Positions 11,213 to 22,487 of a stretch of DNA of 28,296 bases are shown piece after piece; the stretch's first letter is position 1; every line of letters begins with the position of its first letter. Under the pieces are notes generated by a model, which was not told where the DNA came from, searched no databases, and saw only the letters and a program-made list of their open reading frames with translations. Position numbers and translations under genes: made by a program. Source of the stretch: a virus; the IMG/VR virus record IMGVR_UViG_3300005548_000487, positions 1 through 28,296 of that record, one strand, 5' to 3'.

Positions 11213-11616
11213 CAGAGCACCTTCCGGAGCACGACAGCGCGCTCTTCATAGCCTTGGGGTTGCAGCGCGCGGACCCAGCCCTTGCGCCCGATCAGTTCGA
11301 TGGAGGCGCAGCCGCAGCCCCTGGCCCACAGCTCGATCAGCCGCAGATAATGCAGCCACTCTTCGCGCCCGAGCCCGGCGCAATGGCGGATGAAGCATTG
11401 CGAGCCATGTTCGCCCGGAATGATCTGGGTGACGCAGGCGGCGCGGATCTTGTGGCCCTCGGTCGCGATCCAGGCGATCGCCTCGCCGCGCGCGATCTCG
11501 CCCATCACCTCGTCGAGCGATTCGAACGCGTCGCGATCGATCGAGGGCGCGATCGCCTGGCGCAGCTCGGCCTCCAGGATCGGCGTCATCGGCGTGGTGA
11601 TCCCCCCGAACAGCAT
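11212..11616 (-). CDS. GNAT-like phage protein (T7 gp13-like position)
   Basis: The 134-aa product has the pattern of a minimal acetyltransferase fold: strands around AIAWIATEGHKIRAACVTQI, a central strand and helix (EEWLHYLRLIELWARGCGCASIELIG) and the terminal phrase GRKGWVRALQPQGYEERAVVLRK, frequent in phage GNAT-type proteins of structural operons. In T7-like phages a protein of this kind (gp13) is needed for assembly of internal virion proteins; the same role is plausible here because the ejection-protein genes follow directly. The canonical acetyl-CoA loop is not obvious, so enzymatic activity is doubtful. It has a GGGAGG ribosome binding site, and its start overlaps the stop of the 49-aa gene as TGATG. 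Confidence 0.65.
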   Translation of the reverse strand: MLFGGITTPMTPILEAELRQAIAPSIDRDAFESLDEVMGEIARGEAIAWIATEGHKIRAACVTQIIPGEHGSQCFIRHCAGLGREEWLHYLRLIELWARGCGCASIELIGRKGWVRALQPQGYEERAVVLRKVL

Positions 11617-11765
11617 CAGAGGCCTCCCGCCGTCAGCCGGTCCTCGGCGTCCTTGAGCCGTTTCTCGATCTCGGCGTCGCGGGTGTTGAGATTGTCGATC
11701 AGCCGGCGCGCCCAGCCCAACAGGGCGGCGGCAGCGGTGAGGAAGCTGTAGCGCGCGGGCGTCAT
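11616..11765 (-). CDS. Small hypothetical protein, 49 aa
   Basis: The ATG at 11765 overlaps the nozzle gene stop as ATGA and follows GAGGGCG; the stop overlaps the GNAT-like gene's start. The product has a hydrophobic N-terminal helix (YSFLTAAAALLGWARRLI) and a charged C-terminal coiled-coil-like half (RDAEIEKRLKDAEDRL). It may be a membrane-associated or helical assembly factor; no family was recognised. Conserved overlaps on both sides are the main reason to accept it, since a longer open frame extending to 12449 is an Arg-rich artefact covering the nozzle gene. Confidence 0.6.
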   Translation of the reverse strand: MTPARYSFLTAAAALLGWARRLIDNLNTRDAEIEKRLKDAEDRLTAGGL

Positions 11766-13228
11766 CGCGCGCCCTCCATCAGCACCGGCACTTCGATGCC
11801 GGTCGCGCGGCTCCAGCTCTGGCGCGCGCCGATGATGGTGCGGCAGCGCAGATAGCGGCCGCTCGCGCGCAGCGGGCAGCTGCCGTCGATCGCCTTGTCG
11901 GCGAAGGCGGTGAAGGCGATCGGATCGGCCATCGATTGCGCACGCGCGCCGATCGCGCAGGACACCATCGGCGCATCGACGATCGGCCGCACCGCATTGA
12001 CGAAGGCGCGGCGGCCTGGTGCGGCTTCGAAATCGCCGGTATCGAAGGTCGCCGCCATCGCATCGCCGTTGAGCGGGCCGTAGCGCCCGGCGGCATCGAA
12101 GCCGGTCGCGCGGAAGCGCTTGCCCTGCAGCTTGGGATCGTCGAGGCTGAAATTGAGGCTGTCGAGCGACCCGAACTGATCGAGGCTTTCGAGCGTGTAG
12201 CCGATATCGAAGCCGCTCATCAGCCAGCGCATGGCGAGGTTGGAACGCGTCCAGCGGTTCTCGGTCAGGCTGTAGCTCAGCCGCTCCTTCAGCAGCCCCG
12301 ATCCGTCGGTGCGATAGGCCCAGGAGATGGTGGCGCTCAGCGGATCGAACGCGCCGACGATATAATTCTCGGTGCCGGGCGCGAGATGCTTGCGGAAATA
12401 TTCGTTGACCGCGCCGGCGCCGATCGGCGTCGAGGTCGTCCCGTCCCACAGCATGAAGCCGTCATCAGCGATATAGGCCGAGATCAGCCCGCAATCGATG
12501 ATCGATCCGGCCGAGATCGCGCCGCGCTTCTTCTCGACCACGTCGAACCGGAACACCGTGTCCGGCCCGACATAGGTCATGCGGCTGATCGCATAGCGCT
12601 GGAACACCGATCCGAATTCGCGGCCGACGATTCCCTGCACTGCGCCGCCCTCATCGGGCATGTCGTTGAAATCGGATTGCGCGCCGACATTGGTGCCCCA
12701 GATGGTGGGGTTGCGGAAGCCGCTCCAGCGCACGCGGTTGGGGCGGTGGCCGTCAATGCCGTCGTCGAGATCGCCGAGCACGAGGAAATCGCCGACCGTG
12801 CCGATCGTCTTGGCGCGCGGCGGCGATCCGGCGAGCGCGGTCATCGCCTGGCCGATATCGCCGGCGACGGTGGGCGCGCCGAGCTGCACCGCGATCGCCT
12901 TGCCGACGAAGCGCGCGAACTGCCAGCTGTTGAGCGCGCTCAGCGGCGATGCGCTATGATATTGCGAGGCGAAGGGCGCGCCATTGTTGCTCACCCAGAT
13001 ATCGTCGCCCGCGCCGGCATAGATGAAGCTTGCGTCGGAGGTGTCGGCGAACACGGTCGCGCCGGTGATCGGCGGCGTCAGCGAAACCCCGTCGATCAGG
13101 TTGAAATCATAAGCGGGGCCATAGCCGCCCGGCACCGGCACGACGTTGAGCGCATCGACGAGCGCATCGGACTGGAAGGTCGCCTGATCGGGCTTCCACG
13201 CGCCGAAGGGGATCGGAATCGGCGTCAC
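11762..13228 (-). CDS. Tail nozzle / stabilisation protein (P22 gp10- or T7 gp12-like)
   Basis: The 488-aa product has the look of the podovirus tail nozzle: an N-terminal FGAWKPDQ and DALVDALNVVPVPGGYGP motif (the common opening YxP.LNVxPxxGGY), repeated beta-propeller-like blades with DDIWVSNNG, VGDFLVLGDLDDG, PNRVRWSGFRNPTIW and FMLWDGTTSTPIG, and a beta-rich C-terminus. Nozzle proteins form the hexameric tail tube end below the adaptor ring. GTG at 13228 is chosen because it overlaps the adaptor gene's stop as GTGA and has GAGG seven to eight bases upstream; the longer frame to 13312 would run far into the adaptor gene. Confidence 0.82.
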   Translation of the reverse strand: MTPIPIPFGAWKPDQATFQSDALVDALNVVPVPGGYGPAYDFNLIDGVSLTPPITGATVFADTSDASFIYAGAGDDIWVSNNGAPFASQYHSASPLSALNSWQFARFVGKAIAVQLGAPTVAGDIGQAMTALAGSPPRAKTIGTVGDFLVLGDLDDGIDGHRPNRVRWSGFRNPTIWGTNVGAQSDFNDMPDEGGAVQGIVGREFGSVFQRYAISRMTYVGPDTVFRFDVVEKKRGAISAGSIIDCGLISAYIADDGFMLWDGTTSTPIGAGAVNEYFRKHLAPGTENYIVGAFDPLSATISWAYRTDGSGLLKERLSYSLTENRWTRSNLAMRWLMSGFDIGYTLESLDQFGSLDSLNFSLDDPKLQGKRFRATGFDAAGRYGPLNGDAMAATFDTGDFEAAPGRRAFVNAVRPIVDAPMVSCAIGARAQSMADPIAFTAFADKAIDGSCPLRASGRYLRCRTIIGARQSWSRATGIEVPVLMEGAR

Positions 13229-13548
13229 AGGCAGGGCCTCAGCCGGTTGGTGCCCGATCGGCCGGAGCTTTCGCGGATCAGGTCGCTCTTGATCTTCTTG
13301 GCGAGCGCCCATTGCCGGTCCGCACTTTCGGGATCGCGGATCACGTCCTCGAGCAGATAGGCCTTGGCGAGCGCACGGATGAGTTGCTCACCCTCCTCCA
13401 GATAGGGATTGCTGTCGCTATCATTGACCAGCGGCGCGAAGCGGGTGGTGCCGTTGATCACGACCGGATAGGCCTGGTCCGGCACCATATAGAGCTGGAT
13501 GCCGTTGCCGTAGCGCGAATAATAAGCGGGCTGGCCCTTCAGCATCAT
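13225..13548 (-). CDS. Head-tail adaptor, C-terminal half as a separate gene
   Basis: This 106-107-aa protein begins directly with GQPAYYSRYGNGIQLYMVPD and YPVVIN, then EEGEQLIRALAKAYLLEDVIRD and a Lys/Arg tail. In intact phage adaptor proteins, as I know the family, the phrase GxPxxYAxYGxxIRLYPxPD lies in the middle of one polypeptide and the helical LIRxxAKxxLYxxVIRD part at its end. Here those parts form a separate gene. The second ATG (13545) has GGAGG at 13553-13557 exactly seven bases upstream, so it has its own strong ribosome binding site; the first ATG (13548) overlaps the upstream stop as ATGA. The matching N-terminal half is encoded immediately upstream. It presumably co-assembles with that half in the ring beneath the portal. 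Confidence 0.75.
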   Translation of the reverse strand: MMLKGQPAYYSRYGNGIQLYMVPDQAYPVVINGTTRFAPLVNDSDSNPYLEEGEQLIRALAKAYLLEDVIRDPESADRQWALAKKIKSDLIRESSGRSGTNRLRPCL

Positions 13549-14258
13549 GCATCCTCCAGGATGGCGGCGTAATCGGCGTAGAAATGCGGCGCGGTGTCGG
13601 CGACGTCGGTGACAGCGATGTTGAGCGCCTTGATCGAGGCTTGGCCGCCCGGATCGATCGCGCTCACGAGCACGGTATAAACATTGTCGTGATTGGCGTC
13701 GGCGGGCGCCTCGAAATCCTTGGTGCCATTGGCCGCCCAGCGCAGCACCGAGCCGACAATCTCGAACTGCGCCGCGTCCGGACCGCCCGCGATCAGCCAG
13801 CTCACCAGCATATCGGCGGTGAGCGCGACTGCGAGCCGCGCATTTTCCGGCACGCTCTGGTTCTGATCGGTGGTGATCGTCGGCGCGGTCGGCGTCGGCG
13901 TGGGGGTTGGGGTGGGCGTCGGTGTCGGGGTGGGCGTCGGCGTGAAGATCTGATCGCCGTCATGCCAGCGATCGAAGGTTGCATGGTTGACGTAATCGAG
14001 GTTCCAGCGCTGGCCTTGCGGCGTGACGATGTGGAGGCTGTCGATCCGCCCGATCAGCGGGATATCGGCGAGGTCGTGGACGTCGTAAAAATCCTGTCCG
14101 GCGACCGTGGTGAAGCTGATCCCGCGCAGCTCGTTGAACCAGAAACGTTCCTTTGACGCTTCCTTGATCGCGTCGCTGATGGCGAGCGCGATCTCGGAGG
14201 CGAGATCGGGGCGCATCAGCTCGTTCATGATGCGCGCCTTGATGGCCCCGAAGCTCAT
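13545..14258 (-). CDS. Head-tail adaptor, N-terminal half fused to a (TP)9 linker and cadherin-like domain
   Basis: The 237-aa product has three parts. Residues 1-104 match the start of a phage adaptor: FGAIKARIMNELMRPDL, helical IALAISDAIKEASKERFWFNE, then FTTVAGQDFYDV and DIPLIGRIDSLHI. Residues 106-124 are nine consecutive Thr-Pro pairs. Residues 127-220 form a cadherin/Ig-like domain with SVPENARLAVALTAD, SWLIAGGPDAAQFEI, LRWAANGTKDFEAPADANHD and YTVLVSAIDPGG, a calcium-binding cadherin-like pattern. The reading frame stops at 13545 and the rest of the adaptor follows as a separate gene. The start (14258) overlaps the preceding stop as TAATG. The role is a ring or connector between portal and nozzle; the appended domain may bind the host surface or glycans, which is inference. 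Confidence 0.72.
   Translation of the reverse strand: MSFGAIKARIMNELMRPDLASEIALAISDAIKEASKERFWFNELRGISFTTVAGQDFYDVHDLADIPLIGRIDSLHIVTPQGQRWNLDYVNHATFDRWHDGDQIFTPTPTPTPTPTPTPTPTPTAPTITTDQNQSVPENARLAVALTADMLVSWLIAGGPDAAQFEIVGSVLRWAANGTKDFEAPADANHDNVYTVLVSAIDPGGQASIKALNIAVTDVADTAPHFYADYAAILEDA
13887..13943 (-). repeat. Coding repeat for nine Thr-Pro pairs
   Basis: Nineteen codons alternate ACN and CCN (nine Thr-Pro pairs plus a Thr). The codons vary (ACG CCG, ACG CCC, ACC CCG, ACA CCG and so on), so this is not a simple identical-unit microsatellite. It encodes a stiff extended linker between the adaptor core and the cadherin-like domain. Confidence 0.85.
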
Positions 14259-14952: not shown

Positions 14953-16041
14953 TCAGACCAGCGGCGCGTAAGCCGGGAGGATGATCGTCCCGAACCGCGC
15001 ATTGTTGAATTGGGAAGCCTTCAGGCCAGCGATCGTCCAGGCCGAGACGCCAAGCTGGTTCTCATAGTCGAAGCGTTCCTCGACCCATTTGAACTTCTTG
15101 TCATCATTGGGCGTGTCGCCGCCGGTGCCGAACATCGCCGCCTGCGCGCCGCACAGGATCGCGCGCCGGGCGTTGGTGACGGCCGCGCCGGTCGTCGAAT
15201 TGACGCCATAGGGCACCTTTTCGGACTGGTGGATGACGATGCCGTTATAGATGCCGACGAAATCGCCGCCGGTGATCAGCGGCACGTCGCTGAGCCCGCC
15301 CTGGATATGCGCGCGCTGCAGGTCCGCCCACTGGCCGGTCGAGGTCTGCGAGCGCAGGCTCTGCACCTGGTTGGGATGCGCGAACAGCACATAATAATTG
15401 CCGCCGCGGATCTTGAGCGGGCGGATCGGCATCAGGCCGGTCGAGGCGAAGGTGCCCTGCCGCAGCCGCGCCGCCAGCCGGTCGATCTGGACGAGCGTCA
15501 GCTCGTCGCCGGTGGTGAGCGATTCATCCGCGGTCTTGCTGTTCGGCCGCATGATATGATTGGCGTCGGCCGGCACGACCGCGTTGAAGCCGGTGTAAGC
15601 CGTATCGGTCTGATAGGTGGCGCCGCCAATCTGGTTGAAGAACCAGGTGTCGAAGCGGGTCGCGAACCAGTCGGCCAGCCCTTCCTTGGCCTCGCTGCGC
15701 ATATTGAAGGCGACGCGCTGCTCGGACATGCGGCCCTTGGAAATGACCGCGTGGCGAAGCTGATTGATGACGAACTGATCGCTGTAGGTGACGAGCGCTT
15801 CCTCATTGCCGTGCAGCGTATCGTCGCCGGTGGTGCCGCGGCCGGTGAGCTGCGGGCGCAGCCCCATGACGAGCTTGTCGCCGGCCTTGGTGGAAAAGTC
15901 GGTCTTGTTGACGAGCAGGGCGTTGGCGCCCTTGCCCATGAAGGACCAGACATAGGTCTGCTGAATCGCCTCGGCGGCGAGCTCCCGCTCCCATATGGTC
16001 GGGCTGAGCGGATGGCCCGATTGAAATTCCGAATATGCCAT
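14953..16041 (-). CDS. Major capsid protein, N4-gp56 family
   Basis: The 362-aa product starts at the ATG at 16041 after AGGAG. It has the characteristic layout of the N4 gp56 capsid family (HK97 fold): an N-terminal arm with SPTIWERELAAEAIQQTYVW, the GDKLVMGLRPQLTGRG loop, the YSDQFVINQLRHAVISKGRMSEQRV region, ADWFATRFDTWFFNQI, a YYVLFAHPNQVQSLR strand and the LGVSAWTIAGLKASQF C-terminal part. It builds the icosahedral shell with the scaffold encoded upstream. Unusually, the gene is separated from the scaffold by about 4.5 kb of accessory DNA, so it probably has its own promoter in the region 16042-16300. The longer frame to 16137 has no supporting signal. Confidence 0.92.
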   Translation of the reverse strand: MAYSEFQSGHPLSPTIWERELAAEAIQQTYVWSFMGKGANALLVNKTDFSTKAGDKLVMGLRPQLTGRGTTGDDTLHGNEEALVTYSDQFVINQLRHAVISKGRMSEQRVAFNMRSEAKEGLADWFATRFDTWFFNQIGGATYQTDTAYTGFNAVVPADANHIMRPNSKTADESLTTGDELTLVQIDRLAARLRQGTFASTGLMPIRPLKIRGGNYYVLFAHPNQVQSLRSQTSTGQWADLQRAHIQGGLSDVPLITGGDFVGIYNGIVIHQSEKVPYGVNSTTGAAVTNARRAILCGAQAAMFGTGGDTPNDDKKFKWVEERFDYENQLGVSAWTIAGLKASQFNNARFGTIILPAYAPLV

Positions 16042-21389: not shown

Positions 21390-22487
21390 TCAGGCAGCGG
21401 CGTAGCCCTGCGCGTTGACATAGACCGAGCCGGTGCCCGATGCGGTCAGCGTCGCGAATTCCATCAGCGTGTTGGCGGTGCCCTTCAACGGGCAGGTGAA
21501 CTTGATCTCCGCGCCCACGAACGCGCCGCCGGTGTTGATCTTGCCGCGCCAGAGCACAGTGCCGGCCGCGCCGTCGCGGATCACGATCTCGGTCGCGGTG
21601 CCGAGCGTGTCGGCGAAGATCTGCAGGCCGGTCAAGTAATTGCGCAGGCCGGCGCCCGCCGCCGCCGCGATCGTCACCGCCGTGGTCGTGTTGGTGATGC
21701 CGCCCGCCGCCGCCGCATAGCTCCAGCGCGATCCGCTCAGCGCGAATTGCTGCATGAGCGTGCCGTTGACGTCGCCGCGCACGCGATCCCAGCTCGTGCC
21801 GTTATAGTTCATCGGATAGGTGCTGCTGTTGAGCGTCGTCGTGCTGTTCGATGCGCCGTCGGCGGGTGTCGCGGTCGTGGAGACCGCGCCGGTGCCGTCC
21901 GCCACCTTGAGCTGGACGTTGAGCGAGCCGCGCAGGCCGAGCTGGGCATCCCCGCGCTGGCCATCCGCCAGCGTCGGCGGTGTCGCATTATAGCGGCCGC
22001 CCACCTTGACCGGATTGCCCGCGTCGCTCGCGCCCGAGGCGGCGTTGCCACCCACATACAAACCATTGGTATCGCCGCGGGCGCGATCCCAGCTCGCGCC
22101 GTTATAATTCATCAGATAGGCGCTGCTGTTGAGCGTCGTCGTCGTGTTGGAGGAGGCGTCGGCCGGATTGGCGGTGCTGGAGATCGCAGCACTTCCGTCC
22201 GCCACCTTGAGCTGCACGTTGAGCGAGCCCCGCGCGCCGAGCTGCGCATCGCCGCGCGCGCCATCCGAAAGCGTCGGCGGGGTCACATTGTAGCGCCCGC
22301 CGACCTTGACCGGATTGCCGGCGTCGCTCGCGCCCGAAGCGGCGTTGCCGCCATTGACCTGGACGCCATTACTGGTGCCCGGCGTCGTCTGATCGATCTG
22401 GACGCTGCTGCTGGTGCCCCCGCTCGCGGTGCTGGTATCGAGATTATAGACCTCGCGGCCTGAGGTGTCGGTTCGGATTCCACTCAT
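21390..22487 (-). CDS. Virion decoration or head-fibre protein with an internal 100-residue duplication
   Basis: The 365-aa product has two copies of a module in exact 100-residue register (about residues 41-140 and 141-240). The shared phrase GGNAASGASDAGNPVKVGG begins each, followed by RYNxTPPTLxDGxRGDAQLG, RGSLNVQLKVADG and YxMNYNGxSWDRxRGD. The C-terminal 110 residues are a beta-sandwich-like domain (LTGLQIFADTLGTATEIVIR, VLWRGKINTGGAFVGAEI) similar to the C-terminus of the 244-aa protein at 2821-3555. Such proteins are usually displayed on the virion. The start overlaps the portal stop as ATGA. Placement between portal and scaffold, instead of with the tail genes, suggests a head fibre. 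Confidence 0.6.
   Translation of the reverse strand: MSGIRTDTSGREVYNLDTSTASGGTSSSVQIDQTTPGTSNGVQVNGGNAASGASDAGNPVKVGGRYNVTPPTLSDGARGDAQLGARGSLNVQLKVADGSAAISSTANPADASSNTTTTLNSSAYLMNYNGASWDRARGDTNGLYVGGNAASGASDAGNPVKVGGRYNATPPTLADGQRGDAQLGLRGSLNVQLKVADGTGAVSTTATPADGASNSTTTLNSSTYPMNYNGTSWDRVRGDVNGTLMQQFALSGSRWSYAAAAGGITNTTTAVTIAAAAGAGLRNYLTGLQIFADTLGTATEIVIRDGAAGTVLWRGKINTGGAFVGAEIKFTCPLKGTANTLMEFATLTASGTGSVYVNAQGYAAA
21768..22367 (-). repeat. Tandem 300-bp coding duplication
   Basis: Two 300-bp units (22367-22068 and 22067-21768) encode the repeated module of the preceding protein. Residues 47-66 and 147-166 are identical, and most differences elsewhere are conservative. Equal unit length without indels indicates a fairly recent in-frame duplication or strong selection for length. 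Confidence 0.85.

Follow-up and report, generated by a model that had tools for sequence, protein, structure and literature searches.

A probable two-chain head-tail adaptor with a stalked cadherin-like domain at the end of its first chain, conserved in a clade of podoviral phages

The window analysed here is a viral DNA stretch of 28,296 nucleotides (IMG/VR record IMGVR_UViG_3300005548_000487, positions 1 to 28,296), and bears on its minus strand an adaptor locus divided between two adjacent genes, arranged in the order of transcription as follows, with the basis of each assignment in parentheses.

14953..16041, minus strand: major capsid protein, the basis of the tree described below (context)
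13545..14258, minus strand: N chain gene, 237 aa, comprising the adaptor N-half, (TP)9 and the cadherin-like domain (open reading frame, profile match and Ka/Ks)
13944..14258, minus strand: adaptor N-half, aa 1-105, PF24175 positions 1-91 (profile, alignment, Ka/Ks of 0.06-0.08 between clades)
13887..13943, minus strand: (TP)9-T linker, aa 106-124, nine Thr-Pro pairs plus one T (translation)
13593..13886, minus strand: cadherin-like domain, about aa 125-222 (homology; Ka/Ks of 0.31-0.37 between clades)
13548..13592, minus strand: short tail closing the N chain, aa 223-237; its coding sequence includes the Shine-Dalgarno sequence of the C chain (sequence)
13543..13557, minus strand: junction, with GGAGG at 13557-13553 and the stop TGA at 13547-13545 overlapping the conserved start ATG at 13545-13543 (sequence)
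13225..13548, minus strand: C chain gene for the adaptor C-half, matching positions 95-181 of PF24175; its product has 107 aa if counted from the first ATG (13548) and 106 aa if counted from the second (13545) (profile; Ka/Ks of 0.10-0.11 between clades)
11762..13228, minus strand: next gene, a phrog_3287 virion structural protein in the position of a nozzle-type gene (context)

The original prediction described an adaptor N-terminal half joined through nine Thr-Pro pairs to a cadherin-like domain and then stopping, and this is what the gene at 13545..14258 on the minus strand encodes; the separate gene for the C-terminal half, with GGAGG exactly seven bases before an ATG, was likewise confirmed in the sequence at 13545. 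The same split arrangement was recovered from 12 other IMG/VR contigs of 11 metagenomes by IMG/VR scans using both halves, and a further contig (L033) ends just after the C chain start. The split contigs fall into two clades, A and B, between which the adaptor halves are approximately 84% identical, and in all of them the N and C chain genes are adjacent. The stop of the N chain and the start of the C chain overlap in TGATG, and this element together with GGAGG, spacing included, is identical in every split contig. An extra in-frame ATG lies just upstream at 13548, but this codon is GTG in clade B, and the ATG at 13545 is thus the conserved start of the C chain, where the anti-Shine-Dalgarno energy is the best among 28 candidate starts in the region. 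Other genes of the window overlap in a like manner: TAATG stands at the N chain start, GTGA follows the C chain, and TGATG recurs at positions 11616 and 11212. The tail of the N chain (window 13548-13592) carries the stretch YADYAAILEDA, AYAQYAAILEDV in clade B, which resembles ALAKAYLLEDV of the C chain (13342-13374) and may reflect either chance or a trace of the origin of the junction. Elsewhere in the window, a tandem duplication at 21772-22349 (300-base period, 1.9 copies, 85% matches) lies inside the ORF at 21390-22487, the protein of which consequently has two similar stretches of about 100 aa. A long ORF at 321-2405 encodes Ig-like sequence with no Pfam match, and its first part looks like the wrong frame, so its true start is probably internal.

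Podoviral head-tail adaptors of the SU10_adaptor type form a twelve-subunit ring on the portal. The N chain matches the Pfam profile of this family, SU10_adaptor (PF24175), at 33.7 bits, with its first 105 aa alone covering positions 1-91 of the 194 in the profile, and the C chain matches positions 95-181 of 194 at 27.8 bits; both scores exceed the curated cut-off of 27 bits. The prediction had allowed that each product might prove to be a full-length member of a different family, but the two are complementary parts of one. When whole virus records were searched with the profile, each of four single-chain records was matched once and over the full length, whereas in six split records the outcome was always a pair of half matches and nothing more; these six records, which are metagenomic fragments, thus contain no second adaptor that the profile recognises. 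The full profile does not lie on one polypeptide here but on the products of two genes in different frames. A profile borne by a single polypeptide is typical, being found in every relative examined, and stands outside the definition of the family, and the pair in the window is classed as a split variant. The surroundings are those of a podoviral late region, with a P22-type portal, a Phage_capsid_3 capsid protein and the phrog_3287 gene directly after the C chain; the split adaptor genes sit between the capsid protein and the gene in the nozzle position, as is expected of the family. Among known adaptors, SU10 gp11, Vibrio phage VP1 gp12 and T7 gp11 (PF24175 for the closest) thus resemble the locus both in the profile, which the two window chains cover jointly, and in the gene neighbourhood running from the capsid protein to a structural gene in the nozzle position. 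They differ from it in that the window adaptor comes in two chains with a coupled start, and with a TP stalk and a cadherin-like domain at the break.

Both adaptor halves evolve under purifying selection, with third-codon-position change predominating in each. Between clades, Ka/Ks amounts to 0.06-0.08 for the N-half and 0.10-0.11 for the C chain, and to 0.31-0.37 for the cadherin-like domain, which within clades gives 0.04-0.17. The number of TP repeats ranges from 7 to 11 among the split relatives, and no contig of the split clade was found without the cadherin-like domain. Judged from these sequence comparisons, the split arrangement is genuine and not an assembly artefact, with both reading frames kept by purifying selection. 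One contig, L013 (IMGVR_UViG_3300048905_000197, L013:6001-6335), is unlike all other split contigs in that its C chain departs from the usual frame after about residue 99, whether through a sequencing error or a real small indel.

That the two halves form one protein elsewhere, as had been proposed, is borne out by their complementary profile coverage and by the single adaptor gene of relatives. Five contigs found by a capsid-protein scan (L055-L059), with capsid proteins 83-85% identical to that of the window, encode the adaptor as one gene of about 205 aa without the domain, and 22 more distant viral contigs, found by a scan using these five, likewise carry a single-chain adaptor without the insert. 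The order of N-half, TP, cadherin-like domain and C-half, which the original prediction proposed to look for in sphingomonad prophages, did not turn up in Sphingomonadales genomes: an adaptor is present in 11 of 398 of them, in each as one continuous match without the domain. Among the 27 viral single-chain loci (one cut by a contig end) and these 11 genomes there is no intermediate, either with the insert and no split or with the split and no insert, and a blastn search with the locus gave no match. In the capsid-protein tree the split contigs make up one side of a single branch with support of 100/99, beside the single-chain contigs. Given the single-gene relatives and this one supported branch, insertion and split together appear to be a single derived condition, and the sequences support one origin of the split form, in the ancestor of the phage clade. 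One single-chain relative (L068) is a prophage in Sphingobium faniae, which suggests that the split-adaptor phages infect sphingomonad bacteria.

The predicted structure of a single-chain relative, L057 (mean pLDDT of 87), shows the fold of a helix bundle with a fibre-dock beta domain and matches the adaptors of cyanophage A4 (Z 16.7), Vibrio phage VP1 (Z 16.1), SU10 (Z 15.6) and Pa223 (Z 15.5), so that on the strength of the model L057 can be confidently assigned to the SU10/VP1-type adaptors. The N chain alone, predicted by AlphaFold on ten near-identical sequences, reached a pLDDT of 39, too low to be informative about the fold of the domain. Both halves align cleanly to the single-chain relatives across the insertion, which is placed by the alignment and model of L057 at approximately residues 102-105, in a loop that follows the helix at 91-100 and leads into the strand at 110-114. 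This agrees with the original prediction, which had put the break in a loop immediately preceding the GxPxxY motif. The loop falls within the beta-rich middle part of the model (residues 43-138), a part that we equate, by analogy, with the fibre-dock domain of the T7 and SU10 adaptors. In T7 the fibre-dock domain of the adaptor is among the parts that interact with the fibres (PMC6702177), and in SU10 the long tail fibres are held by radially protruding dock loops of the adaptor (PMC9509320). The insertion in the window would therefore lie in the part equated with the domain that bears these loops, but it differs from the SU10 dock loops in consisting of a whole domain on a stalk, and its loop is only tentatively likened to theirs.

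The domain itself has no direct match in Pfam, PF00028 (Cadherin) included, and a tblastn search of annotated phages with it gave no match. It matches protocadherin-15 weakly by phmmer (E 4e-4) and is 33-44% identical to parts of alphaproteobacterial plasmid-encoded proteins, among them TomTYG64_35680 of Sphingobium, encoded beside an HlyD-type (type I) secretion gene. The homologous repeats of this Sphingobium protein match Pfam Cadherin at 2.3e-17, and because they do so while the window domain has no direct PF00028 match, the latter is called "cadherin-like" only. The naming in the original prediction is accordingly upheld as to homology, with protocadherin-15 and the Sphingobium repeats, but has to be tempered, since the domain is diverged and one calcium motif is absent: where the host repeats have DTDxG (DxD), the adaptor-borne domain shows a gap, although the EN and DFE positions are kept. 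As judged from these motifs, calcium binding is probably incomplete, and the loss of DxD makes calcium-dependent adhesion of the cadherin type doubtful.

Relatives of the domain occur both in secreted proteins of the host and in a phage protein of another kind. An appendage-like protein of 630 aa (L086:2518-4410, from IMGVR_UViG_3300009168_000032), bearing a Pfam Cadherin match and Ig-like sequence, contains a domain 54% identical over 78 aa to part of the adaptor insert, and the adaptor match of that contig lies elsewhere, in one continuous stretch. The repeats of TomTYG64_35680 and this appendage-like protein thus share a homologous domain with the window, at 33-54% identity, but theirs stand in tandem arrays or with other Ig-like sequence, whereas that of the window is single, shortened and placed in a connector gene. 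In the known cases, appended Ig-like domains extend an otherwise intact phage protein, sometimes by frameshift. Such domains on phage structural proteins, reportedly described by Fraser and colleagues in 2006, resemble the present case as surface domains of a promiscuous beta-sandwich type added to a virion protein, but in the window a core protein is split, and the domain stands at the end of its first half. Neither a split adaptor nor a cadherin-like domain in an adaptor was found in the open-access literature searched.

The reading that we favour, and consider likely, is that a domain insertion together with a gene fission produced a natural two-chain adaptor, the first chain of which ends in a stalked surface domain. 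A (TP)n-cadherin-like module would have been placed once in the adaptor loop, between the helix at 91-100 and the strand after the GxPxxY motif, and the stop codon, Shine-Dalgarno sequence and new start may have arrived with the module or arisen later. Ribosomes finishing the N chain would re-start at TGATG, aided by GGAGG, and produce the C chain by coupled initiation. Both chains would then fold together into each subunit of the ring in the manner of fragment complementation, the N half supplying helices 1-2 and part of the fibre-dock domain, and the C half contributing helices 3-4 together with the rest of the strands. As the N chain ends after the domain, the latter would be a free C-terminal extension instead of a loop insertion tied at both ends, and its Thr-Pro stalk would suspend it outside the ring, on the fibre-dock side, where it may act as an extra module for binding host surface material or for bracing fibres. 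A fuller version of this proposal, in which the connector is a split ring with equal copies of the two chains, encircled at the neck by stalked cadherin-like domains that serve as an adhesion or fibre-bracing collar, and in which fission allowed a whole domain to enter a tight loop, is plausible, but we hold it tentatively.

Several other accounts of the locus deserve consideration. The prediction had itself foreseen that close relatives might have an intact gene and that this copy might carry a recent artefact, and only the former proved correct. A decaying gene, or an error of assembly or sequencing, would fit with those intact single genes and with the loss of frame near the C chain end in L013, but is refuted, as far as sequence can refute it, by the recurrence of the same structure in the 12 other contigs and in two diverged clades, by purifying selection on both frames, by the conserved start signal and by the one supported origin, and is scarcely credible. 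Recoding at TGATG, by a -1 shift or a bypass, would instead join the chains into one long ring chain with the domain inside the loop, either alone or beside the split form. The two frames do adjoin, sharing a few bases, N-half, domain and C-half follow one another in the order that a fused chain would need, and in clade A the C frame runs open through 137 upstream codons. In clade B, however, that frame is interrupted 11-18 codons before the C start, so that any shift would need to be exactly at the junction, where no slippery heptamer was seen by eye in either clade, and the conserved GGAGG seven bases before a conserved ATG answers to the needs of a separate start; we regard recoding as highly improbable. 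A frameshift within the TP repeat that would yield a fused chain is ruled out by the same closure of the C frame in clade B.

More room is left for accounts that accept two products and question what they do. One of them might retain the ring role while the other now serves apart from it as a protein of the neck or surface, the missing part of the adaptor being drawn from an unrecognised source, since separate genes are free to take on different roles, the domain changes more quickly than the adaptor halves, and the genomes of the clade are fragments in which such a partner could be overlooked. The low Ka/Ks of both halves (0.06-0.11), their complementary coverage of the profile, their adjacency in all contigs and the lack of another SU10_adaptor match in the six split records searched speak against this, and it appears improbable. 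Somewhat less so, yet still unlikely, is that the two-chain adaptor is real and the stalk and domain a neutral passenger, in which case the insertion forced the split and was tolerated with no adhesive or bracing role. The three- to fivefold faster evolution of the domain relative to the halves, the range of 7 to 11 in the number of TP pairs and the loss of the DxD motif would all agree with a passenger, but the Ka/Ks of the domain, between clades as well as within them, still indicates purifying selection, and the domain is present in every contig of the clade.

The two-chain adaptor with a stalked terminal domain, our preferred reading, bears on a core part of short-tailed phages, for adaptor rings belong to their basic architecture and every relative examined makes the adaptor as one chain. 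As the conserved split demonstrates, the fold can accommodate an interruption within the fibre-dock region, and a whole domain hung there. The split further suggests a route by which fission coupled to insertion would let a virion gain a display domain without a two-ended loop insertion, and points to one defined place where podoviral tails might be decorated. Closely related single-chain forms can serve for comparison, and one such relative is a prophage of a named Sphingobium strain.
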